A stretch of 64,000 nt of DNA, from contig CM049317.1 of assembly GCA_026874595.1 (NCBI GenBank), positions 32,476,901 to 32,540,900 on the forward strand. Reading direction: 5' to 3'. The position numbers were made by a program, and so were the translations under genes. Shown in pieces: positions 10,046-52,680 of this stretch. Below the pieces are notes generated by a model that saw only the letters and a list, made by a program, of their open reading frames with translations, was not told where the DNA came from and made no database searches. Position 1 is the stretch's first letter. Each line of letters starts with the position of its first letter. This stretch comes from Sipunculus nudus. Lineage: Eukaryota > Annelida > Sipuncula > Golfingiida > Sipunculidae.

Positions 10046-11551
10046 TTAATATGTTTGTTTTGGAAATCTTGAAGTTTGGGAATTAATAATTATGTTGTGT
10101 GGACTAACTCATTTTGACATCAAAGCACCGGGGGTTGTGGTTGCAACATGAATTGTTAAAACAAGTATGGGTAAAAATACGGGTAACCGAGACTCAAGGA
10201 GAGAAATATGCTTTAAACACGTCGGGTCTACCAACAATCAGTGTTCAAAGAGGACATGTATTTCCCTTAATTTTATTCAATGTGGTTACTTAAGAAGATC
10301 TTATAGAAAACCCATTATGGGGTTAAAAATGCTTCATGTTTGCAAAATACTTATAATCTTTTTCAATTGTGCTTAATTTTCCTTTTTTAAATACCGATAA
10401 AAGATTTCATTATCGATATAAAAATATTCAAAGATGGAGCATATATATATGTGTGTACGTATGTGTGTGTGTGTGGACGTGTGTGCGTGTAACCTAACGA
10501 AGCTTAATGAGGCAAGCCAGTTTATATCTTCGTGTTAAAGATTTTATTTCAGTTTCCCTAAATGAATCAATACATTAATCAATTGCAATATTTCCTTTCA
10601 TTATCTGTAAATATAAACTTCAAATCATAATAATATCACCAATATCATACTTATCGCTTATACTCATACAATAATCAAGCCTCTTATTTAATCAATTATA
10701 TATGATTTATTGACTTATAGTAACTGCGCTCTTCAACAAATAAATGTATGATGCACATGTTTCGGGAAAAGTTATGTTTTTGTCATTTACACTGGTTTCT
10801 GGATCACTTATATAAATCGCAAATCCGATTTCATATAACTTAGAAGCATTTGATTGTTGTTCTACAAAGGAATTTTATGAGCCCATACTAATCATTATAA
10901 AATTATAAATCTGGCAAGCAGATAAGCACATAGCCACGCACACTGACAGACAGAATCAGACGTATAGCTGTATAAGCGTTCAAGGCAGAGTACACTGGAA
11001 GAGTCAATTATAAACAGATATCTAAAAAACAATATTTTATTAAAATGTTTCACAATATATGTAAGTTTTGTGAATCATCTTGTACGGGGAGCTCAGTATA
11101 AAATAAAATGAAATGAAATCATTCACAGAAAGACAAAAAACTTGCCTCACCCAAACGCCCAACCATTAAAACGTTAAATAAACACTTTAAATGTATCACA
11201 TCGATCAAAATAAGGAATAAATTAATATACTGGAATTTGATACATTCAACGACATCAAAACGTATACTCAGAACTATAAAATGAATACTAGTTGTAGGAA
11301 ATCAATACCAGACTACTCTGCCGGTCTCTTCTTTAGAAATAAGATAATTATACTTGATTAATGTGGTTCGATTCTTGTTCGAACTACAAGAAGTGGTCGT
11401 AGGAAAGAAAGACAGTGGTGTTAAGCATTTCGCCCCGTAAGAATATTTCTGAAATAAAATAAATATTTAAGATTATGTCAAATTGAATTATACTTCAATC
11501 ATTTCGCTTGGTTCGAGTTACAATAGGCTGTATCAGTATATGACATCAATG
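10046..11551. other. No gene seen; (TG)n-rich tract at 10440-10490
   Basis: AT-rich sequence. The only structure is an imperfect TA/TG microsatellite at 10440-10490. Confidence 0.55.
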
Positions 11552-11765
11552 TATACGGATTGACCTCAAAAATGATAATTAAAAACAGTAATCTCCCTAC
11601 ACAATTAAAAAACACATCGTTTTGTAGTATATAAAATGATGAAAATCCTGTTTTACCATTATTGTTTTCGAACTAATGAGGTTAGACCTTCCACCAATTG
11701 TTTATGTATATATATATATATATATTGTTTTCGAACTAATGAGGTTAGACTTTCCACCAATTGTT

Positions 11766-11807
<42 letters not shown>

Positions 11808-11980
11808 AACAATTGGTGGAAAGTCTAACCTCATTAGTTCGAAAACAATAATGGTAAAACAGGATTTTCATCATTTTATATACTACAAAACGATGTGTTT
11901 TTTAATTGTGTAGAGAGATTACTGTTTTTAATTATCATTTTTGAGGTCAATCCGTATACATCCGTATACATATATATATA
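11552..11980. repeat. Large inverted duplication with (TA)n centre
   Basis: The left arm starts 'gtatacggattgacctcaaa' at about 11552. The right arm ends with its complement at about 11960. Arms are nearly identical, including blocks around 'aacagtaatctcc', 'catcgttttgtagtat', 'gatgaaaatcctg' and 'tcgaactaatgagg'. Inside the left arm the innermost block of about 65 bp is duplicated in tandem (11664-11726 and 11727-11785), so the hairpin is asymmetric. The centre is (TA)n at 11770-11803. It is either a young foldback/MITE-type element or a copying/assembly artefact. Confidence 0.85.
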
Positions 11981-18102: not shown

Positions 18103-19350
18103 AAAACTAGAATACGGATAGCCGACAAGTGACTACGTGTATCTGCCAAAATCAGAGTGGAACGGGTGAAGTGAGGCATGGATTGAGTGGCAAGGGGAAA
18201 CAGAGTGAGGTATGTTGCATATTAGCATGGATGTCTGCAGCCTAAATGTGTATGTAGGTTGTGCAACCTACCACAAATCCAGAAAGCTGTCCAAGTTGAA
18301 TACATATGCAAAATTTTAGGCAGAAAAGTCAAACCACTACATGGATATGAGTGATTTTAGCCCACGGCAGACAAACAGACAGACGCTGTGCAAAAATGGT
18401 TGCAGTTTTGTGTATTATAAAGACCTATGTGAGATCTAAACACAAGCACAATTTTGGCCCAATCGGTCAAATGGTTCCTGAGATATTAGCTTGGAAGTTT
18501 GCAGCGTTAACTAGAATGTAGGTGGCGCCACCTGTCATAAAATCAAGAAAGCTATCCAGGATGTATAAACCTGCAAAATTTTAGGCAGTTATGTCAAACC
18601 ACTACAGAGAAATGAGTGATTTTAGGCCACGGCAGACAAACAGACAGACGCTGTGCAAAATGTGCAAAAATGGTTGCAGGTGGCCCCTCCAGTTTTGTGT
18701 ATGATAAAGACCTATGTGAGATCTATACACATGCAAAATTTTGGCCCAAGCGTTCAAACGGTTCCCGAGATATGAGCTTGGATGTCTGCAGCATAAACTA
18801 GAATAAAGGTGGCGCCACCTGTCATAAAATCAAGAAAGCTATCCAGGATGTATAAAACTGCAAAATTTTAGGCAGATATGTCAAACCACTGCCAAGATGT
18901 GAGTGACTTTATTGCACGGCAGACAAACAGACAGACGCTGTGCAAAAATGGTTGCAGGTGGTGCCACCAGTTTTGCGTATGATAAAGAGCTATGTTAGAT
19001 CTATACACATGCAAAATTTTGGCCTGATCGGTCAAACGGTTCCCGAAATATGAGCTTGGATGTCATCAGCGTGAATAAGAATGTAGGTAGCGCCACCTGT
19101 CATAAAATCAAGAAAGCTATCCAGGATGTATACGCATGCCGAATTTCAGGTGAATTAGTCAATTCACTGCAGAGATATGAGTGATTTTACCCTAAGCCAG
19201 ATGAACAGATGGACACTGTGCAAACATGGTTACAGGTGGCGCCACCATTTTTTGTGTATGTTATAGAGCTATCCAAGGGCTACATTAGTATAAATTTTAT
19301 TTCCTGATCAGTCAAACGGTTCCCGAGATATGAGCTTGGAAAGCTCATAA
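18103..19350 (+). repeat. R1 repeat copy 2, 5' end and first array (about 280-bp dimeric units)
   Basis: The 5' end reads 'tagaatacggatagccgaca' and is matched by the outer edge of the inverted copy at 49.2 kb. Four units of about 270-285 bp begin near 18250, 18516, 18803 and 19081. Each has two related halves, both with 'gcaaaattttgg/agg', a 'gtcaaac' box and 'gagatatgag'. Most halves are separated by GGTGGCGCCACC or a near variant (18520-18533, 18807-18820, 19085-19098, 19235-19246). No reading frame persists across units, so this is not coding. The class is unknown. Confidence 0.8.
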
Positions 19351-19419
19351 AATCAAGTCCCAGAGGAGCTCTCTGGAAACGAACGCGGCAACGGCGGAGG
19401 AACCCGGTCAAAAACATAG

Positions 19420-21490
19420 TATCCACAAAACTTCTTTTTGGCGGGTACAAAAATACAGGTGGCTCCACCAGTCTGCAGAAACTAATAAAAACACTTACAA
19501 ACATCAATATCCATGCAAAGAATCATGGTGATCTCCCCATTAGTTGTTCAGATACTTCAGCTTTTGTATCAAATTGTCCATTATTCTGAGGGATACTTCG
19601 GAGTCCTATAGCTTGAAGGATATGGGTAACAGAGACCTAATTTTAAGTTTCCACAGGCACTTTTCATGGGCCTCCTTGCATGACAAGAATGAAGATTCTA
19701 GGTCCAGTTGTTGCGATTTGTACCCTGTTGACAGATAACCACATCTTTAAAGGTATCAAAAAAAAGAGAAAAAAATCGTAAAAATTTGAAAAAAATAGAG
19801 GTGGCGCACCCTCTCTGCAGAAACTGATGGAACAGGTCATGATCAATATGTATGCCGAAAATCATGACCATCAGTGTTGTAGTTATTGAGATACTGCAGT
19901 TTTTGTATCAAATTTTCCATTATTCGGGGGGGGGGGGGGGGGGTAATTTGGAGCCATACAGCTTAAAGAATATGGGTAACATAGACCTAATTTCAGGTTT
20001 CCATGGAGACTTTTCATTGGTCTCCCTGTGTGTCAAGAATGAAGATTCTAGGTCCAGTTTTAATGATTTGTGCCCTGTTAACAGATGTTCATAACTTTAA
20101 AGGTCTCAAAAATAGAGAAAAAATTCGTAAAAAAACCCGAACAAATACAGGTGGTGCCACCAGTCTGCAGAAACTGATGAAACACTCCATGATCAATATC
20201 CATGAAAAAAATTATGGTGATCTCTGCATTAGTTGTTTAGATACTTCAGCTTTTGTATCAAATTTTCCATTATTCTGAGCTGTACTTTGGAGTGCCATAG
20301 CTCAAAGGATATGGGTAACAGAGACCTAATTTCAGGTGTCCATGGAGACTTATCATTGGTCTCCCTGTGTGTCAACAATGAAGATTCTAGGTCCAGTCCT
20401 TACGATTTGTACCCTGTTGACAGATAACTACATCCTGAAAGGTCTCAAAATAGAGAATAAAAAATTGTGAAAATTTGAAAAAAATACAGGTGGCACCACC
20501 AGTCTGCAGGTACTGATGAAACACCTCTTGATCAATATGTATGCCAAAAATCATGACCATCAGTGTTGTAGTTATTGAGATGTTGCAGTTTGTTTTTATC
20601 AAATTTTCCATTATTCTTGGGGGTTATTGGGAGCCCCCCATAGCTCAAAGGATATGGGTAACAGAGACCTTATTTCAGGTTTCCATGGAGACTTTTTATG
20701 GACCTCTCAGTGTGTCAAGAATGAAGATTCTAGGTCCAGTCTTTATGATTTGTGCCCTGTTAACAGCTGTTCACATTTTTAAATTCGTAAAAAATCGCCC
20801 CCAGTCTGCAGGAAGAGATGGAACATCTCATGATCAATACGTATGCCAAAAATCATGACCATCAGTCAAGTAGTTAATGAGATATTGAAGTTTTTGTATG
20901 AAATTTTTTATTATTCTAGGGGGTACTTTGGGGCCCCATAGCTCGAAGGATATGGCTAACAGAGACCTAATTTCTGGTTTCCAAGGAGATTTTTCATGGA
21001 CCTCTCAGTGTATCAAGAATTAAGATTCTAGGTCCAGTCTTGAAGATTTGTGCCCTGTTAACAGATGTTCACATTTTTAAAGGTCTCAAAAATAGAACAA
21101 AAAAAAATTGTAAAAAATCGAAAAATACAGGTGGCGCCACCCGTCTGCAGGAAGTGATGGAACATCTCATGATCAATATGTATGCCAAAAATCATGACCA
21201 TCAGTCAAGTAGTTAATGAGATATTGAAGTTTTTGTATGAAATTTTTGACTTTTCTGGGGGGTACTTTGGGGCCCCATAGCTCGAAGGATATGGGTAACA
21301 GAGACCTAATTTCTGGTTTCCAAGGAGATTTTTCCATGGACCTCTCAGAATCCCAAGTTATAAGGTTCTAGGTTCAGCGGTTACGATTTGTGCCTGGTTA
21401 ACGGACGGACAGACGGACAGACGGACGACGGACAAAGAGTGATCGCTATAGCTCAGATGACTCTCAGTCAGCTGAGCTAAAAACCGGATA
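19420..21490 (+). repeat. R1 repeat copy 2, second array (about 340-bp units) and 3' tail
   Basis: Six units, marked by 'ctgcag-aa-tgatg' near 19471, 19813, 20163, 20502, 20811 and 21144. Each holds 'atcatgaccatcagt', 'gatattg-agtttttgtat', 'attattc', 'ggatatgggtaacagagacc', 'tttccatggagac' and 'gaagattctaggtccag'. A G18 run sits at 19926-19943. The last unit enters the GGACGGACAGACGG tail near 21402-21432, then 'gatcgctatagctcagatga' and 'cagtcagctgagct'. This shares its 3' end with copy 1, so R1 is a repeat with two internal arrays and fixed ends. Small frames inside are incidental. Confidence 0.8.
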
Positions 21491-32544: not shown

Positions 32545-32752
32545 CGTCAACCAGGCCCGGTGACTACTGAACCTGCGGGCCCTGGATGCGTAATCGTCCC
32601 CACTGCTGGGTCATACCCCCGAAAGAACTACTCGTTGGTGGGTAAAACACGGCCGTTGGGCACGGCCTCGCCACTGAGCCTGCAGAGCCCTCATCCTGGT
32701 TGGGGGCCGACCGTAAACAGTCGCACCGCCCAGGCTGAGATACGAACCACAG
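32545..32752. other. GC-rich unassigned block abutting the long-TIR element
   Basis: About 200 bp distinctly GC-richer than its surroundings, open on the plus strand for 65 codons. It ends exactly where the left inverted arm starts. Contains 'gagatacgaaccaca', weakly like a complemented Pol III box B, but no matching box A in the right order. Possibly a SINE fragment; not classified. Confidence 0.35.
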
Positions 32753-33937
32753 AATAGTAGGTGGGTTAAGTGACTTTTGACTTCATTTCATGATGCAAAG
32801 GTCCCCTTTGGCACAAAAGTACCTTAGGGTCATAGGAATAAATTTATCCAAAGACACAAGTTAGATCTCCCTTAGTATGTGAAATATATGCAAATTATTC
32901 AAAATGGCCGCCGAAAATACTCCAAACCCCATATGCTTGCCGCTGTTACAGCTATAATGACAAATGTTGTGTCAAAATATACATTTTCTTGGTCAAGGAA
33001 TCCAATGAAATAGGTTTCCAGATTGAGAAAACAATAGTTTTCTCCTTAACATGAAAATCTGGGGTAAAATGGGCACATTTCATGAAATATCAATGATTTT
33101 CTTCCATCAGGGTAACCTGAGACACTTGAGACATCTATGTCCTTGGCATTTGAGAGGTATTAAACAGTTGTGAATAGACCATGAAGACTCGTCTAACTGA
33201 ACACAGTCCTCAGTCGACATACATAGAGCATGAAACCACAGGAAATTTAAAGCATTAACTAGAGAATTACTGGTACGTGGCACTTACTTAATCTGAGTTT
33301 AGGCAGTACAGCAAGACCATGGTATTACAAGGACAGATATGCAGTTTTTTTCTTTTTTTTTTAAGAATCAACCAATGAAATACCCACATTCTTGCTCTAT
33401 CACCCGATCAAATACCCACACACGATGCTCTATAACTAGCAAATATACATAAGGCCTTGGTTGTGGTTTTTCCGCATGTACTGTTATTTCATTTATATAC
33501 ATTATCTGGGTAATACGGCATAAACTGACCCTTCTGGACCACACAACATGCATGGGATTTACTTGGCAAAAGCAGAGTACCAGTACACACAGGAATGGGG
33601 AGACATTCCTGTAACAAAACTCAATAATGTTGCCAACTGTAGTTTCTTCCCAGTATCTAACATCTTGATTCAACAGAATATTTTGTTTGAGACACATATT
33701 ATCTATCTCATGATGGTCAACCCTTAATAGTTGATCAAAACCAAAAGCACAAAAGCCATCAGTCATTGACACTCTTAGTTTTTTATGCTTCTCCAGTTAG
33801 TTATTGGGTTTTATAGGGAAATACACGTATCCTGAAAGTTGTGATCGTATTTCTATTTTTACAAGTAACGTCAGGTAACTGAAGGAATTAGATGTGTTAT
33901 GTTTTATTGTGGATGAAATGATTGTTGAAGTAATAAA
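32753..33937 (+). repeat. Left inverted arm of the long-TIR element
   Basis: Pairs with 36343-37533. The outer part (about 32776-33500) is very close to its partner: I counted roughly ten differences in the first 340 bp. The inner part is visibly more diverged. The right arm has 7 extra bases near its outer end. Confidence 0.9.
33368..33772 (-). CDS. Hypothetical protein in left arm (134 aa)
   Basis: An unrecognised frame starting ATG at 33772 and reading toward the outer end of the element. It shares most of its sequence with the partner frame at 36494-36910. The start MS-x-TDGF, the central HHEID and the WE-TT-GN segment are shared; the C-terminal half from LCRITQIMYINE to the stop is nearly identical. 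There is one hydrophobic stretch (PFLCVLVLCF) but no signal peptide or known catalytic motif. Indels relative to the partner are whole codons (four codons at HEID, one near SRR), which argues for past coding constraint. No start-site context, intron or polyadenylation signal was identified. Function unknown. Confidence 0.35.
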   Translation of the reverse strand: MSMTDGFCAFGFDQLLRVDHHEIDNMCLKQNILLNQDVRYWEETTVGNIIEFCYRNVSPFLCVLVLCFCQVNPMHVVWSRRVSLCRITQIMYINEITVHAEKPQPRPYVYLLVIEHRVWVFDRVIEQECGYFIG

Positions 33938-36342
33938 GTAAAAGAATTCATCCTACCTTGACATTATGGGGAAAGTATGCAAATTTCAATAAATTTTAGT
34001 ATCATCATGAAAACTTTTAGTATCTTTGATTGGTTTTGTATTATATTCCTTTATTAGTTCTTGTTTATTATCCTTATATAGAGAGGGGAGCATTTAATAC
34101 CAGTGTATATGTACCCGATGTGTGCGATTCACTGCATACAGAGCATAAAACCACAACAAAGTGATAAACATATTTGTATTACTTGGAGAAATAATTAAGC
34201 TGCATGCTATTCGAATAATATATAATTATGCTTATGATCAAATATAATTTAATTGAACATAAGAACACACTTCAAAAGTCTTGCTCCCGTAAGTTTTCAA
34301 ATTTACTGCCATGTTTTGGAATACAATATCTCTTTAATACCCCTTAAACCATACGTTTTGCATGGCTTACATAGGTGTCACTCTGTCACAGACGGAGTAC
34401 ACAGAGGTATTGGCAGCTGTACAAAGTGGACATGAGAATTTTTTTATTGCCAATCATCACGTAATCTATTTAAGATGTGCATTTGATAAAAATGGAAGCA
34501 CCTATTTCCCAGAATCTAGCATTCTGGATAGTGAAGTCCATTGCACGAATCACATAAGTCAAAGTTCCTTATGCCCAGAAAGTCAGTACTATACTATCAG
34601 AGGTGTCACAGGACAGTTACAAATTGATAAACTTGGCCAAACATTGCTTGTTTACAGATCTAGTCAAACTGCATTTGAGAATGTGTGTATACTTCTGAAG
34701 CCAAATCCTCAAACATCTATCTTTTAGATTGGAGTGATTCCTGGACTTTGGTGTTTATTAATATTTATAATGAACTTATTAGCCGCCTGATATCCGTTGA
34801 AATTCTAACGAGTAAGCACAACATGTATTACAATCTTAGAAATCTCCCTAAAAACCCAAATGTGACCTGGTATGGCCCTACTTGTCAAATTCATCTGCAG
34901 AATATCGGCAGGTGACCCTGAAACACTTAGATGCATTGCACTTCAATTAAAACTAATGAATTGTGTGCATAGGAATTATCACATGATGGTACCACAGCAT
35001 AAATTAAAGAAAAACCTATATCTTGCTTCATAGGTTAAATAAAATGTCCAGTACTGTTTATGTTATAGGCCCTTCGAATTTTAAGTGACATTTGTGGCGT
35101 GTCTTGCTGACGTCAAAGCAGTTTGAGCCCCTTTTTCAGGTTAGTTGTGACCAACTGTAAAAGTATAACATACACATTTTATTAAATTATTATGAGCAAG
35201 AATTAGTTTTTTTCTGAAAAAAAAAACAGATTATTTGTTTGATTGGAAATGTGAGAGAATTTGCTAAAGAGGTCAGAGACAAGTAACATGACGGGCGCTG
35301 CTGCTGTTTATCAACGTGGCCCATGCCTGAAAGGGTTATACATAGTAACATAAAGCTGCTGGTGCGACATGACTGAAAGGGATTTGCTAAATAAGTTCAT
35401 CAGAGATTACCTAACTTTGGAGAATCATTGACAAATGGTCAGCTTTACAACCCTAAAAAAATTAGTTTTCCACTGATGGATCTAAAAGGGTAATTTTCTT
35501 GGTGTACGCCCTGACACTTGTATACTCCCAGGTACTGATAACTTAATTTCCTACGTCTGTTCGGGGTATTGTTAAGGTTAAATGACATATTATTCTCACT
35601 TATGCATTACCGCGAATTGTGCATTTCTTGGTTTAAGATGTATTTTCATTGCATGATGTAAGTAAATTAGTGTCTTAATCTCTTTATATGACAAAGGACA
35701 CTACCAAATTTCTATACCACTTCAATTTCGGTCTTACTGAGAAGAAAATTATTTACTTCCCCATGGACATTGGTCACCAGGAACATATGTGGACCAAGAG
35801 GTGACAGGATCCTCAAGGAGTACATGTGAAATCCTTTTGCCCAATGGTTTTAGCTGATTTTAGGCAAAGGAAAGAAATGTCTTTGGACGCAAATGTTTAA
35901 ATAAAGAGCTAATCACTGAGAACATGAAACATACGAGTCGAGTGGTAATAGACTTTGATCTCTGTGCTGGCTATACCCAGTTTCTATTCCCGGGAGGGCT
36001 ATGAGAATAGATGACAGTGTCCCTTTCCATGTAAAGTGATAAAGTTACAATTTATCAAATTCTAAACTTTATTGAATTACATTTGGACATTACATTCAAC
36101 ACTTTCTGCTTTTTTTTTTATGACTAGTGTAAAAGGTTATATAACACGGAAGTGAGAGGTAAAGCCTGTTAGGCGGACTTGGCATCTCGCCTTCTTGCTG
36201 TGCTTATACTTCGGTTGCAAGTTTATTATTGCATCATTAACATGCTGATGATCGGTGGCATTATTGCAGTTTTTGTGAACAATACTGGATTAATTGATAT
36301 AACCTGCACCACATCCTGAACAATCAACGCTGCCACCATTAC
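33938..36342. other. Core of the long-TIR element
   Basis: About 2.4 kb of single-copy sequence between the arms. Apart from the 34362-34727 frame and an overlapping 76-codon frame after it, no coding or structural signal was read. Confidence 0.5.
34362..34727 (+). CDS. Hypothetical protein in element core (121 aa)
   Basis: The frame starts MAYIGVTLSQTEYTEVL and contains a run with several Cys and His (HHVIYLRCAFDKNGSTYF, then DSEVHCTNHISQSSLC), ending QTSIF. Its composition is less AT-biased than chance frames nearby, so it could be an exon or an old gene. I do not recognise the family. A second frame (34685-34915) overlaps its end by about 40 bp in another phase, so a frameshift or an intron may separate two parts of one product. 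Alternatively both are chance. Confidence 0.3.
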   Translation: MAYIGVTLSQTEYTEVLAAVQSGHENFFIANHHVIYLRCAFDKNGSTYFPESSILDSEVHCTNHISQSSLCPESQYYTIRGVTGQLQIDKLGQTLLVYRSSQTAFENVCILLKPNPQTSIF

Positions 36343-37533
36343 TTCAACAATTTTTTCACCCACAACTAAAATATAAGACATCTAATTCCTTCAGTTCCCT
36401 AACATTACTTGTAAAAAATAGAAATGTGAACAAAGTTTTCAGGATATTTCACTATAAAACCCTAAACTAATTGGCGAAGCATAAACACCAAGAATGTCAA
36501 GAACTGATGGCTTTTTAGTTTTCAGCATTGATCATTTACTATTATGGGTTGGCCATCATGAGATAGATCATGAGATAGATAAGATGTATTTCAAGCAATA
36601 TATTCTGTCGAATCAAAATTTTAGATTCTGGGAAGGAACCACAATTGGCAACTTTATTGTGTTCTCCTACAGGAATGTCTACCCATTCCTGTGTGTACTG
36701 GTACTCTGGTTTTATAAATATATCATGCATGATGTAGTTTCGAGAAAGGTTATTTTATGCCGTATTACCCAGATAATGTATATTAATGAAATAACAGTAC
36801 ATGCGGAAAAACCACAACCAAGGTCTTATGTATATTTGCTAGTAATAGAGCATCGTGTGTGGGTATTTGATCGGGTGATAGAGCAAGAATGTGGGTATTT
36901 CATTGGCTGATTCTTAAAAAAAAGAAAAAAACTGTATATCTGACCTTGTAATACCATGGTCTTGTTGTACTGCCCAAACTCAGATTAAGTAAGTGCCACG
37001 TACCAGTAATTCTCTAGTTAATGCTTTAAATTTCCTGTGGTTTCATACTCTATGTATGTCGACTGAGGATTGTGTTAAGTTAGACGCGTCTTCATGGTCT
37101 ATTCACAATTGTTTAATACCTCCCAAATGCCAAGGACATAGATGTCTCAAGTGTCTCAGGTTACCCTGATGGAAGAAAATCATTGATATTTTAAGAAATA
37201 TGCCCATTTTACCCCAGATTTTCATGTTAAGGAAAAAACTATTGTTTTCTCAATCTGGAAACCTATTTCATTGGATTCCTTGATCAAGAAAATGTATATT
37301 TTGACACAACATTTGTCATTATAGCTGTAACAGCAGCAAGCATATGGGGTTTGGAGTATTTTCGGCGGCCATTTTGAATAATTTGCATATATTTCACATA
37401 CTAAGGGGGATCTAACTTGTGTCTTTGGATAAATTTAATCCTATGACCCTAAGGTACTTTTATGCCAAAGGGGACCTTTGCATCATGAAATGAAGTCAAC
37501 AGCCTATTTTATGTACTTAACTCACCAACTATT
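36343..37533 (-). repeat. Right inverted arm of the long-TIR element
   Basis: Reverse complement of 32753-33937; homology begins inside near 'ttcaacaatttttt' (about 36345) and ends at 'ctcaccaactatt' (37533). Confidence 0.9.
36494..36910 (+). CDS. Hypothetical protein in right arm (138 aa)
   Basis: Partner of the 33368-33772 frame, again reading toward the outer end. It begins MSRTDGFLVFSIDH and contains a tandem HEID HEID, a four-codon duplication absent from the left copy. WEGTTIGNFIVFSYRNV and PFLCVLVLWF follow. The last 50 or so codons are almost the same as in the left arm. It stops at TGA just before an A-rich run (AAAAAAAAGAAAAAAA) that is also conserved in the other arm. No known domain. 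Keeping a 138-codon frame open in both diverged copies is the only support for coding. Confidence 0.35.
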   Translation: MSRTDGFLVFSIDHLLLWVGHHEIDHEIDKMYFKQYILSNQNFRFWEGTTIGNFIVFSYRNVYPFLCVLVLWFYKYIMHDVVSRKVILCRITQIMYINEITVHAEKPQPRSYVYLLVIEHRVWVFDRVIEQECGYFIG

Positions 37534-37638
37534 TATTAGAAGTCGGTATTTGAAATCAGTTCTTGTTATCAAAGAAACAAACCGACATACATACAAGCGG
37601 TAGAGGTAATTAACTGATGAATAAAAAACTCTACAAAA

Positions 37639-37761
37639 TCCACTTCACTGATTTATTCAGTAATACGACAACAAAATATTTACCAAATAAATTGTGAATA
37701 CCAGTCATTGAAGTAGATTTTGTATCAGTGAAGTGGAATTTGTGAAACTTTTGTTGTCGTA
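37639..37761. repeat. Two nested short inverted repeats
   Basis: TCCACTTCACTGA (37639-37651) pairs with 37723-37735. TACGACAACAAAA (37667-37679) pairs with 37749-37761. Both are perfect 13-bp pairs lying just outside the right arm of the long-TIR element. Their pairings cross, so they cannot fold as one simple stem. Confidence 0.65.
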
Positions 37762-37954
37762 TAACCAAACACATTATGAATACCAATAAATGACCCTATT
37801 GAAAAAATTTGTCTGATTTAGCTGAGTGTCTTTTTAAACTGCCGGTGCCCAATATCCGTTTCATGTTTCGGTTAACCTACGGCACATTTGACAGTGTCGT
37901 CTGCTGTAGATTTCATCCATGACGAATACAGATGTCGAGTGTGTGAACGTGAGT

Positions 37955-40560: not shown

Positions 40561-40970
40561 TTCAATAACTTGAAAGAGATACAAAATCTTTTTGTTCACC
40601 ATGTTAAATCTCAAACAATCGTGATGATTTATTCCTGTTTTGGTTCTTGACTTTTTGTGTCAATTACTGATATCAATTTAAAAAAGAGACACGTTAGAAT
40701 TGGATATTATATAAACGCTGTTCAGTTAAGAATTATCAGATGTAAAGTCTTTAATTATATTCGTCTATGGCAGTCACTACTGTCTATTTAACAAAGAAAT
40801 AGGTAACCCTAACAGAAAGGTAATTTATTATGAATTAAATATTAACAGTTATTTCCTGAAATTGGAAAACTCGGGCTACCAGATTAATAGAAATGCCTTC
40901 TGTTTTATGTTCGACAGGGCCGTATTAGCCTCATAGTAATCTGTATTATTCTGCCTGACGTTCCAGTCGA
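40561..40970. other. No gene seen
   Basis: AT-rich sequence leading into the palindromic repeat. Confidence 0.5.
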
Positions 40971-41039
40971 TTAGTAATTCGTGCGCACGGATTAGTAATC
41001 CGTGCGCACGGATTAGTAATTCGTGCGCACGAATCAATA
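40971..41039 (+). repeat. Palindromic 21-bp monomer array, left piece (split by Tigger)
   Basis: Three and a half monomers of consensus TTAGTAATTCGTGCGCACGGA, each centred on the palindrome CGTGCGCACG. The array breaks at the TA at 41038-41039, where the Tigger element begins, and resumes at 43802. Confidence 0.9.
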
Positions 41040-41063: not shown

Positions 41064-41595
41064 ACCGTTTATCCGTTAAATCGTTTATCCGTAATTAAAA
41101 CTGGAGAACCGAAATTATGACCGTTTATCCGTAATTTTGAAAATCTGGAAATATAAAAATAATATTTATTCAATAAGAAGAACTGATAATGGCTCGTGTA
41201 TTTACTCCCGGTCGGTCCCGACTAATTATGAATGCATCACCGGTTCGTTTCTGCAGGTGTGGCAACGCCTAATTATCCATGTTGTACACACGCAGCTTGG
41301 GCTTGTACTCATTTGAGCAGTTATAGATGTGAAAACTTCCACCGGCCGAGTCCCCTAATTAACCTTGTGTCCTGCAATGTCGAGTTGTTCACACCTGCAA
41401 ACCATCCGGCCATGAGAGCGAGTAGATTTTGAGCTGATAATGTCGGACTCTGATACGCTCGAACTTGTACTTATCTGAGCAGTTTAACTGTGCAGGCAAA
41501 TCTATCTTCTATATAAGCTATACCATGACACCCAAGTTCATTCACAATTTAGCAAATCTTCACCACGACAACACAGCACTCAAGTGTCATGTCAG

Positions 41596-43224
41596 ATGGA
41601 GTCAGGGTCTCGCAAGCGCAAACGCCATGTCCTGTCACTTGAAGACAAGTTCAGCATTCTGGAGAGACTTGATCGAGGCACCAAGGCAGCTGAGCTGGCC
41701 AGAGAGTTCAATGTTGGCAGATCTACTATTAGTGACATCAAGAACAGTGGTCAGAAGCTAAAGGATTTCAAGGGCCAGATGCCAGACACGCATGCTTCCA
41801 AGAGAAGAAAGACGATGCGCACGGCGTCTGATGACAAGCTGGATGCGGCCGTATACACATGGTTTCTGCAGGAACGGTCCAAAGGCAGCCCCATCTCCGG
41901 TCCAATCCTGATGGAAAAGGCAGCGATGTACAACAAGTCGATGCATGGCTCTGACAGTACATTTTTGGCGTCAAGTGGGTGGCTCAAGCGGTTCAAGGAA
42001 CGTCACGGCATCCGGCAGCTTGAGATTCAGGGCGAGGCCTTGTCAGCGGACACCAGCCACATCGACGAATTCCGATCCCACGTGCGTGAATTGCAAGAAC
42101 GGGAAGGTTTGAGAGACTCTCAAGTGTACAACGCCGACAAGACAGGTCTCTACTGGAAGGTTTTGCCTGACAAAACCCTAGCTGATGCGTCCGAGAAATG
42201 TGCTCCTGGACATAAGGTGTCAAAAGAGCGGATTACTGCTCTGTTGTGCACCAACGCAACCGGTGAACACAAAGTGCGCCCCCTGGTGATCGGGAAGTCA
42301 ACTTAACCAAGTTGTTTCAAGCACGTGATCATGGACTCCCTGCCTGTGGCGTATCGGGCTCAGAAAAACGCGTGGATGAGCCGTGAGCTCTTCACGGATT
42401 GGTTTCACCAGGAATTCGTCCCGTCCGTCCGTCAGTATGCCAGGGAGAGTCTGAAGCAGACGCCAGCACGCGCATTACTTCTTGTGGACAACTGCCCCGC
42501 CCATCCCATTGAAGATGAACTGCGGACTAGTGACAGGAACATATGGTGTATCTTCCTGCCGAAGAACTGCACCAGCAAGATACAGCCCTGTGATGCTGGC
42601 ATCATAGAATGTACAAAACGATATTATCGTAAACGCTTGCTGTCATCCTTGTTTGCAGACTGCGTCGACAACAGCTTGTCCATCATAGAACGGATGCGCG
42701 GTTTCAACTTGCGTGATGCCATCAACCTGTTAGGTGATGCCTGGACTGACCTGAGACAGTCTACAATCCACAAGTGCTGGAAGAATTCCCTTTTTCTGGA
42801 GCTTAAATCTCCTGCTGGTGCTCAGCCCCCAGCTGATGCGGATGAGGTGGAATCACCGACAGACGTTCAGGTCAGCTCAGTTGCCAAGGCGGTGGACTCG
42901 GACTACAGTGAACTGATAGTTGCTGACTGGCTCCACTGTGATGGTGATCTACCAACTGCTGTAATGCTGACAGACGAGGAGATTGTGCAGTCAGTCACTC
43001 AAGAAGCTGCTCCCGAGACATCTGATAATGAGGAAGACACATCAGCCCCCGTGAAACCCCCACCCACAGCTTCAGAGGCATTTGTTCATGTCGAAGGTGT
43101 TCTATCGTGGTTAGAGAGCCTTCCGAAGGCCGACCCGCTTCACTTGAGTGTGCTACGCTACATCAGAAATCAGGCAGGCAGTTATCGTTCCAGGCAGTCT
43201 GATATCCGCAGTTATTTTAACTGA
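41596..43224 (+). pseudogene. Tigger-family transposase with one nonsense codon
   Basis: A 542-codon frame from ATG 41596 (a GTG lies in frame four codons upstream) to TGA 43222-43224, broken only by TAA at 42304-42306 (codon 237). Domains in order are: a basic N terminus (SRKRKRH); a pogo/CENP-B-type helix-turn-helix at about residues 8-50, with SLEDKFSILERLD and ELAREFNVGRSTISDIK; a second CENP-B-type DNA-binding domain at about 84-146, with SGWLKRFKERHGI; then a DDE-type catalytic domain. The aspartates lie in YNADKTGLYW (D181), LLVDNCPAH (D298) and KIQPCDAGII (D333), so the triad is complete. An acidic Pro/Ser/Glu-rich tail closes the protein. The stop lies between VIGKS and CFKHV, where family members carry Lys or Asn, so a point mutation is enough. 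The usual length of about 500-600 aa fits. Confidence 0.92.
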
Positions 43225-43801: not shown

Positions 43802-43930
43802 TATATATTTTTTTCCACCTTGGAAATATATTTTTAATACCAGGTAATTCGTGCGGCCGGATTTGTAATTCGTTCGCACGGATTACTTATTCGTGCGCAC
43901 GAATTAATGAATATTTTTACGGGCTCCGTA
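43802..43930 (+). repeat. Palindromic monomer array, right piece
   Basis: Resumes with 'tatatttttttccaccttgg' and 'aaatatatttttaatacc', then three monomers and the closing 'atttttacgggctccgta'. The same internal linker and closing sequence are seen at 50.7 and 52.4 kb, so the two pieces are one repeat interrupted by Tigger. Confidence 0.9.
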
Positions 43931-48215: not shown

Positions 48216-49215
48216 CTCTGACCTTATCTCTCTCCAGTGCGTCCATCTGTGCGTCTGTTTTAACCCATTAACCCACATATCTTTGGACTCGTTTGACCAA
48301 TCAGGCTACAAATTTCACACAAATATAGCCCTTGGATAGCTTTATAACAAACCCTAAAATGGTGGCGCCACCTTCAACAATTTTTGCACAGCGTCCATCT
48401 GTTCATCAGCCTTAGTATAAAATCACTCAAATCTCTGCCGTGGTTGGACTTATCGACCTGAAATTTTTCATGTGTATTCATCATGGATAGCTTTCTCGAT
48501 TTTATGATAAATGGCGCCACCTACATTCACGTTCAGGCTGCAGACATCCAGGCATATATCTCAGGACTGATTTGACGTATCCTCCTACAATTTTGCATTT
48601 TTTTAGATCTCATATAGCTATTTATCAGACGCAAATCTGGTGGCACCACCTGCAACCATTATTGCACAACGTTCAGCTGTTTATCTGAACTGAGATAAAC
48701 TCACTCATATCTCGGCAGAAGTTTGACTCAACTGCCTGAAATTTTTCATGTAAATACATCATGGATTTCATTTTGGATTTTGTGGCAGATGGCGCCACCT
48801 ACATTATGTTTACGCTGCAGACATCCATGCTAATATCTCAGGACTGGTAAGACGTACCCCCCTGAAATTATGCATGTGTATAGATCTCACATGGTTCTTT
48901 ATCATACACAAAATTGGTGGCGCCACCTGCAACCATTTTTTGCACAGCGTCATTCTGTTTGTCTCCTGTGAGATAAAAACTCATATACAAGCAGTGGTTT
49001 GACTTATGTGCCTACAATTTTGCGTATGTGTACAACTTGGATAGCTTTCTCGATTTTGTGGCAGATAGCGCCACCTACATACACATTTCAGCTGCATCCT
49101 AATATGCAACACACCTCGCTCTATTTCCCCTTGCCACTCGATCCATGCCTCACTTCACCCCTCCACCTCTGATTTCGGCGGATACACGTAGTCGCTTGTC
49201 GACTACCCGTATTCT
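48216..49215 (-). repeat. R1 repeat copy 3, 5' half, inverted
   Basis: Reverse complement of the 18.1-19.3 kb array. Its outer edge at 49187-49215 ('gtagtcgcttgtcgactacc') matches the R1 5' end at 18103-18140. GGTGGCGCCACC or close variants occur near 48361, 48510, 48641, 48790, 48916 and 49068, i.e. every 125-155 bp. The second array and GGACGG tail are absent, so the copy is truncated. Confidence 0.8.
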
Positions 49216-50698
49216 AGATGATTGTTGTTTTTACTAATTTATTCATGGGCAAGGCAACCGCCTCGGGGGGAAATACACAGAATTCACTGACAGACATATT
49301 TTATGAATGTAGATGAAATAAACCAGGAGGACACTGGTTCCGTCATCGATGATTCCTTATGACTGGCTTGGAATTTTTAATACATGAAGAATTCTAAGTG
49401 GTTTGCTTAAATTTATAACTTGTTATAAAGTTTATTTGTCTTTGCAATAGTTTATAATAAAGTTTTCGTTTCTAAATTTATCCGGTCCGATTTTGCTGAC
49501 GTTATTTAGGTTCGCTAAATTAATTAACGTCAAGGTGTTTCATAATCTGTTTGGGATGGCCCCAGCTGTCCCGTTCCTAAAACCAGTCGTTTAGGAGTAT
49601 AGAAACAGGTAAACACTGACGTTGTCTAGACATGCCTGATTAAATATAAAATTTAATTTGTCTTGAGCATGAATGATTAAAAGAAGTAAGAGTAAATGCT
49701 TGTTGAAAGGTCAGATTCTTAGGTTTTTCCAAAGTGTTAATTTCAAATTTAATTTCAGATTGTGTTATTTGATCACTTTTTTCAAGTATTTAGTCACTGG
49801 GGTTCCCTCTGATGAAAAGCATATTCGCTACTAAATAGATGATGAGTACGCTGTGTTAATCTTTTTGTACAATATTTATAGTTTTAATATAAGCATAAGT
49901 AAGCCGTTTCCCCTAAGACATGGCATGCTGTGCCGACCCACGGCCCAAACGACATGGATTCTCCCCTCATACGAGAACACATCACCCTCTGACAGCCCCT
50001 TAGTGATCATTATGCCAAAGGTGAAATACCGTGTCGGGTGAACATTTGGCATTTCCCACATACACCCACAGGCACTCGGAATAGGTATTATAAACACTTA
50101 TTTAAATAATCATTAACTTCATGGGTTATTCAATACATAATATTTCTTTGTGATTATACAGGGTAGTTAATCAGGCGACTATTGTGCCTGTGTCACATCT
50201 CTCAAGCTCAGTTGTCATACAGGCTAAATATCATGTGATAGTCTTTCAGGTATACTTTCTTATTAATATGCATTTTAAACCTCCGCCCGCGTGGAGTGGA
50301 GATTATTTCTACAACGATATTTGGGTATTTATTGGTTAATACATAAAAAGGGCTACAGGAATGCCTGAAATACTGTTTCGTTAACACGTACGAAAGAGTA
50401 ATATTAAATCATTAACCCGTTAACATTTTATTATAGTTGCATTTCATTCACACTAACGCACCCTCTTGGCGTTGGTTATATTTAACGCCCAGCCATTCCG
50501 CATCAGACCTCACGAAGAAATCGCCAGATTATGTCACAATCAACGGCAAATACTTTAACTTTTTTCTTCCCGTCGTAATGGTCTAAAAGTTCTGTACCAA
50601 AGCCAAAAAAATTGCGGTCCCCTGACCAGGCGATAAATGCGCACATGGTAAACATGATCCGCATTAAAAAAATATCTAATAGCTCCACTGTGCTTCAT
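49216..50698. other. No gene seen
   Basis: AT-rich; frames of 60-73 codons without motifs. Confidence 0.5.
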
Positions 50699-50883
50699 AC
50701 GGAGCCCGGGAGACGACATTGTGAAAAATATTTATTGATTCGTGCGCACGAATTACTAATCCGGGCGCACGAATTACTAATTCGTGGCCACGAATTACTT
50801 ATCCGTGCGCACGAATTACTAGGTGTGAAAAACAAATTTCCAAGGTGGAAAAAATATTTATTAATTCTTGCGCACGAATTACC
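50699..50883 (-). repeat. Palindromic 21-bp monomer array (copy 2)
   Basis: Opens with GGAGCCCGGGAGACGACAT (50701-50719). Four main monomers follow, centred on CGTGCGCACG or variants (CGTGGCCACG, CGGGCGCACG), then a linker 'aaatttccaaggtggaaa' and a last monomer ending at 50883. Reverse complement of the 52.4 kb copy. Confidence 0.9.
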
Positions 50884-52357: not shown

Positions 52358-52680
52358 ATAAATATTTTTCCACCTTGGAAATATATTTTTCACACCTAGT
52401 AATTCGTGCGCACGGATTAGTAATTCGTGGCCACGAATAAGTAATTCGTGCGAACGGATTAATAATTCGTGCGCACGGATGAGTAATTCGTGCGCACGAA
52501 TTACTAAATATTTTTTCCACCTTGGATATTTATTTTTTTCACACCGGGTATTCGTGCGCAAGTAATTCGTGCGCACGAATTAGTAATTCGTGGCCACGAA
52601 ATAGTAATTCGTGCGCACGGATTACTTATTCGTGCGCACGAATTAATAAATTTATTTTACGATGTCGTCTCCCGGGCTCC
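52358..52680 (+). repeat. Palindromic 21-bp monomer array (copy 3)
   Basis: Two linker segments ('tttttccaccttgga', 52366 and 52511) each followed by an array of about five monomers; the unit linker-plus-array is itself duplicated. Ends with ATGTCGTCTCCCGGGCTCC at 52662-52680, the complement of the start of copy 2. Confidence 0.9.

Follow-up and report, generated by a model that had tools for sequence, protein, structure and literature searches.

Long-terminal-inverted-repeat (long-TIR) Mutator-like elements (MULEs) and Galileo are foldback, or long-TIR, elements; MULE and P types make target duplications of 8-10 bp, PIF/Harbinger elements take TWA as target, autonomous AcademX members carry an XPG-type nuclease alongside the transposase, and Zator elements have a Zator/ISAzo13-type transposase. 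AcademX elements encode a nuclease and make 3- or 4-bp target duplications (PMC10045372), curated bivalve Academ elements have a mean length of 5565 bp (PMC10294476), and Zator makes 3-bp duplications (PMC10045372). For PIF/Harbinger and PHIS a 3-bp duplication is typical, TIRs of up to 1042 bp are on record and PIF/Harbinger ends usually start with A or G (PMC4482050); EnSpm has a 3-bp duplication and the termini CAC..GTG (PMC12730594). Here we analyse an element with long inverted arms in Sipunculus nudus, situated in a window of 64,000 nucleotides (C12:32476901-32540900) of a genome that was searched over 1.43 Gb in 153 contigs.

An earlier note had left this element unclassified, as either a new long-TIR family or an amplified host gene pair. 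It can now be described as one of about a hundred copies of a defined transposon family, with its ends, target duplication, subfamilies and likely helper lineage. Our preferred explanation, with a probability of about 0.72, is that the copies form a nonautonomous family of cut-and-paste DNA transposons, moved by a transposase of AcademX-like type. The family is new and the kind of element is already known, not unprecedented; for specialists this is a useful family description and not a surprise.

Dispersed copies, target duplications and empty sites

Self-BLAST of the window aligned the arms, 36338-37533 against 33934-32753, at 89.2% identity over 1209 columns, bearing out the 1.19-kb inverted arms of the earlier note. 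Its extent of 32753..37533 was right for the arms and slightly too wide at the exact ends: because other copies end at TAG...CTA, the leading AA is flank, and the element (no strand assigned) spans 32755..37531, with ends common to the other copies, in which 3-bp duplications lie directly outside. The left arm occupies 32755..33934 (+) and the right arm 36338..37531 (-). The left terminal motif TAGTAGGTGGGTTAAGT lies at 32755..32771 (+), and the right one at 37515..37531 (-), where it reads TAGTTGGTGAGTTAAGT, a mutated form of the usual TAGTGGGTGRGTTAAGT. A degenerate 19-base end pattern (up to 3 mismatches) occurs at two places in the window, both of them element ends, with 0.08 expected in shuffles.

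Searching the genome with the 19-bp end, as the earlier note had proposed, revealed many dispersed copies. With up to 2 mismatches, 71+78 matches were obtained, compared with 6+7 for the reversed control (100 places listed). Exact ends numbered 84 of left type (with a pattern one or two bases longer than the motif) and 76 of right type, and controls gave 0 for both. Pairing the exact ends by coordinate gave 53 convergent loci with spans of 3,375-13,308 bp (median 4,812 bp) and left 54 ends unpaired, which brings the end-bearing loci to at least 107; this total also counts an end of the C9 relative (see below), locus L041 (motif only in the stretch read) and unexamined unpaired ends. Searches with the outer left arm and the element middle yielded at least 40 match pieces (40 of 282 candidates scored) and at least 80 match pieces (40 of 130 candidates scored), respectively. 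We studied 29 loci, of which 9, among them the window copy (L018), have paired ends and 20 a single listed end; both ends were placed in 25, and L026, L030, L032 and L037 were excluded. Identity is mostly 97-99% within subfamilies (94-95% for L019) and 84-93% between them.

Identical 3-bp flanks lie directly outside TAG...CTA in 21 of these 25 copies, and L011 has a 4-bp duplication. Shuffled flanks matched in 3.36 copies on average and in 12 at most (10,000 shuffles), and six shifted registers gave 0 matching flanks. A Tc1/mariner (IS630) assignment, with a TA duplication guessed from the TAG ends, was rejected because duplication affects the 3 bp that lie outside TAG...CTA.

An empty site with a single copy of the 3-bp target was also found. 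L034 is inserted in a tandem-array repeat, and copies of this repeat that lack L034 are present in L010 and L011; the joined flanks of L034 with a single AAA align to these without gaps through the junction, at 94.7% and 96.7% (L010 and L011). Weaker empty-site alignments were obtained for L036 (81.6%) and L024 (75.1%). L010 and L011 are themselves 99% identical, lie 0.9 Mb apart, and differ in their duplications and in the length of an internal array insertion; near-identity at separate sites with different duplications indicates that the whole unit moved. Dispersed copies, target duplications and an empty site together show that the element is a DNA transposon of a dispersed family rather than a host gene pair or a misassembly. 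The new long-TIR family suggested by the earlier note is thus upheld, and the single locus with no empty site that it had named as a refuting outcome was not what the genome holds. The array insertion in L010 (3505-4840) and L011 (3545-4004) is a tandem-array element with a ~300-bp unit, at one site and of different lengths, and appears Helentron/DINE-like by eye; L034 sits in another copy of this repeat.

A coding relative and the candidate transposase

Several loci considered as autonomous copies were of other kinds. The interrupted 13.3-kb locus at C12:41.06 Mb holds a long-terminal-repeat (LTR)-retrotransposon-like insertion, the 7-kb locus at C11:57.6 Mb an unrelated insert of ~2.4 kb, and L041 (C4:64.07 Mb) has the end motif alone in common with the family in the 2.5 kb read. 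The first of these (L039 and L040, C12:41056900-41070450) is a family copy broken by the insertion, in which reverse-transcriptase-like frames are visible by eye. In viral contigs, one exact 19-mer match was found (L009), whose first 700 bases are repetitive and unrelated.

A coding relative of the family lies at C9:46485467-46491152. This 5,686-bp element is flanked by CAC on both sides and has ~290-bp inverted ends (94.5% identity), which match the family ends at about 75-81% over 225-273 columns among the rows listed, and at up to 88% over the outer ~100, with the same long/short asymmetry. It contains pieces of a long multi-exon protein, all on one strand, and represents a decayed element of coding type; such elements are rarer than the window family. 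A 443-amino-acid part of the protein has at least 98 genome matches (95 of 253 candidates scored), including a close C13 copy with one stop (91-93%), fragments at 68-80% (C17) and 40-76% (C7), and numerous further matches, for the most part around 24-48%. The C17 copy retains a similar end; in the stretches examined, no ends were found for the C13 and C7 matches. No relative of the 443-amino-acid protein was found in viral contigs.

Locus L045 on C2 has open frames of 492 and 957 codons, the first of which aligns with the C9 protein at 36% identity across 427 columns. By eye, the C9 and L045 proteins carry DDE-like and FEN/XPG-like motifs, together with a Cys-rich tail; nuclease-like motifs, whole or in part, were likewise seen in L045, L042, L053 and L054. 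L045 (C2:30528700-30533300) and L046 (C12:59628500-59633200) are nearly identical (98% in the part compared); both have long open frames and are more distantly related to the putative C9 transposase, and the ends of these elements were not found.

Remains of this protein persist inside the family. Residues 255-354 of the 443-amino-acid part gave 20 tblastn hits at E <= 0.01 within family copies; the 14 hits shown lie in seven copies, with E values of 2.6e-8 to 1.9e-7, and reversed control copies gave no hit at 0.01. The hits are not independent, because the copies are related. The window copy holds two collinear pieces at 35513..35697 (-), corresponding to residues 291-324 and 339-354 (tblastn E 0.003), one of which contains a stop. 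A possible N-terminal fossil at 36230..36289 (-), matching residues 104-123 of a 154-amino-acid part of the C9 relative, is weak (E 0.009, window copy alone); it would be collinear with the other pieces on the minus strand. No piece of the C-terminal half of the partner protein was detected in family copies at E 0.01. Since fossils of the partner protein lie inside its copies, the family is, on sequence grounds, derived by decay from a coding member of the C9 lineage.

In the proposed mechanism, the C9-type protein would be the transposase, binding the ends common to the C9 element and the family, excising the element, and inserting it into A/T-rich DNA through cuts staggered by 3 bp; the family would thus be moved in trans. 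Copying of one end onto the other, in inverted orientation, is the probable origin of the long arms, and later gene conversion would have kept their outer part even.

Duplication length and motifs make AcademX, the nuclease-encoding branch of Academ, the most likely superfamily label. Family duplications of 3 bp in 21 of 25 copies and of 4 bp in one, together with the CAC/CAC of the C9 relative, resemble those of AcademX, as may a 5.7-kb partner with a long multi-exon protein bearing DDE-like and nuclease-like motifs by eye. The 5686 bp of the C9 relative is comparable to the mean of 5565 bp given for curated bivalve Academ elements (PMC10294476). Unlike AcademX, the window family is nonautonomous and has 1.19-kb arms. 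Very long inverted arms, a short non-coding middle and arm-to-arm exchange are shared with foldback/long-TIR elements, whereas the 3-bp duplication contrasts with the 8-10 bp of MULE and P types.

Several observations weigh against mobilisation by an AcademX-like transposase. The partner protein has no meaningful match in Pfam, NCBIfam or PDB sequences, libraries that contain no Academ model or sequence. The C9 copy is not intact, as it lacks a match to residues 311-644 of the 957-amino-acid L045 frame and stops interrupt its aligned pieces, and it has only the outer ~260 bp in common with the family. Relative to the two end types, the fossils are oriented opposite to the C9 gene, which may be a trace of arm exchange. 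Three of the 25 copies lack a duplication (L013, L027 and the window copy, whose flanks GAA at 32752..32754 (+) and TTT at 37532..37534 (+) do not match). Finally, mobility is read from sequence, and no transposition was observed.

We consider it rather unlikely that the mobile family is real and owes its transposase to another 3-bp superfamily (PIF/Harbinger-like, CACTA/EnSpm or Zator) or to an undescribed one. The partner protein without a library match would fit such an origin, and 3-bp duplications are also given for Zator, PHIS groups and EnSpm (PMC10045372, PMC4482050 and PMC12730594, respectively). However, the family termini are TAG...CTA and not the CAC..GTG described for EnSpm. PIF/Harbinger would account for the 3-bp duplication, but the family targets are TTA in only 2 of 21 cases and TAA in 0 of 21, the first base is T and not the A or G usual for PIF/Harbinger, and the partner has no Pfam match. 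For Zator the duplication length fits, and the partner protein has no Pfam match of any kind. The nuclease-like motifs seen by eye also speak against these superfamilies. A more novel proposal, which we regard as quite improbable, is that the partner represents a lineage outside the described superfamilies, in which a DDE-like transposase of ~1,450 amino acids is fused to a FEN/XPG-like nuclease and a Cys-rich tail, with nonautonomous passengers that would acquire kilobase arms when one end is copied onto the other and hold them alike through arm-to-arm gene conversion.

As to earlier mention of the family in print, a literature search with four 11-base end strings listed 15 of 53 papers, with no title among those listed that concerns transposons, and a search with three peptide motifs gave no match; novelty in print was searched to this extent.

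Arm-to-arm exchange and the arm reading frames

Arm divergence in the window subfamily is uneven. In L018, L020 and L036, the outer four 200-bp steps differ by 2-7% between arms and the inner two by 13-16%. Between arm positions 520 and 760, the two arms of a copy agree at 96-97% in L018 and L036, compared with 76-82% in L016, L015, L023, L010 and L013 (L017 had too few columns). Over the same positions, right arms of the window subfamily are 74% identical to other right arms, and its left arms 85-87% identical to other left arms. An outer-arm tree of 15 copies places the right arms of L018, L020 and L036 among left arms; in the inner-arm tree, which has long branches where some arms end early, they group among right arms. 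This pattern marks a left-to-right gene-conversion tract in the founder of the window subfamily, in which the outer ~760 bp of the right arm is a copy of the left. The window subfamily is a clear case of arm gene conversion read from trees, and bears on how foldback-like arms stay alike. L013, with left-type ends at both sides, is a further arm exchange. It forms the centre of a ~60-bp palindromic flank.

Both arms carry an outward-pointing frame, at 33368..33772 (-) in the left arm (134 amino acids) and 36494..36910 (+) in the right arm (138 amino acids), with the tandem HEID repeat reported earlier. The earlier note had proposed selection on the encoded protein, which comparison with other copies does not support. 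Of 18 aligned arm segments, one keeps the left 142-codon frame open, namely its own, and of 15 segments aligned to the right 141-codon frame, two keep that frame open; segments that span <93% of the frame were excluded. Silent, replacement and stop changes in the left frame across nine subfamilies were 53/133/9, compared with 46.5/138.0/10.5 expected under neutrality. The right frame is split in two by the majority sequence, and gave 24/96/4 against 30.3/85.7/8.0 expected in its first part (stop deficit p 0.075) and 43/109/5 against 36.8/110.8/9.4 in its second (p 0.083), the coordinates of this test being approximate by one base. The sole lean against neutrality is that right-frame stops are slightly fewer than expected (p ~0.08). 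Between the two window arms, the ratio of nonsynonymous to synonymous divergence (dN/dS), which the earlier note had wished to see, is 0.138/0.243 = 0.57, near-neutral and within the 0.40-1.02 range of random placement; this removes the protein claim only, and not the mobile family. Among 18 frames tested across subfamilies none showed purifying selection, and three element frames examined had no match in Pfam. Because other copies lose them, and because the window has 17 stop-to-stop frames of at least 110 amino acids, including both arm frames and a real transposase gene, the arm frames look like chance frames.

That a host gene pair was duplicated in inverted orientation and maintained by selection on its 134- and 138-amino-acid proteins is accordingly extremely improbable. 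Both frames are open in the window copy, and when the observed changes were placed at random the frame stayed open in only 14 of 500 trials; taken alone, the latter would speak for a kept frame, but the frames were chosen for openness and other copies lose them. The changes between the window arms are spread over codon positions as 18/19/20, and an amplified host gene pair is further contradicted by dispersed copies with target duplications, by frames broken in nearly all other aligned arm segments and by neutral changes across subfamilies. A false inverted repeat can hardly be entertained either: long inverted repeats are error-prone in assembly, but the structure recurs at 53 paired loci that differ in their flanks, and 21 of 25 copies show 3-bp duplications.

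Other coding signals within the element were also discounted. A 121-amino-acid middle frame at 34362..34727 (+) is private to the window copy and exists because this copy lacks ~57 bp at about 34453, which are present in 38 of 39 other scored copies (40 of 130 candidates scored). An internal frame at ~34473-34911 showed 54 silent changes against 43.0 expected at subfamily level (p 0.025), and at copy level 45 where 36.0 were expected (p 0.007); selection was discounted, as 18 frames were tested at two levels and stops were not reduced (15 against 12.4 expected, subfamily level). A mod-3 periodicity of substitutions over the initial 300 bp (chi-square of 17.1 for the best of 76 overlapping windows) disagrees with the open frame there and is not seen at the other element end.

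Neighbouring features of the window

The right flank of the element at 37534-37900 is single-copy. Downstream, a pogo/Tigger-like transposase gene lies at 41488-43224 (+), with Tc5 helix-turn-helix, CENP-B N and DDE_1 domains, split by a stop at 42304-42306. It is flanked by 21-bp tandem arrays (consensus GATTAGTAATTCGTGCGCACG) at 40969-41031 and 43844-43906, and arrays related to this unit occur at 50738-50821 and 52397-52649. Tandem arrays at 18219-21405 and 48274-49217, with units of about 278 and 339 bp, resemble each other and the flanks of other family copies. A palindrome of ~410 bp, 89% self-complementary, is located at 11549-11961.

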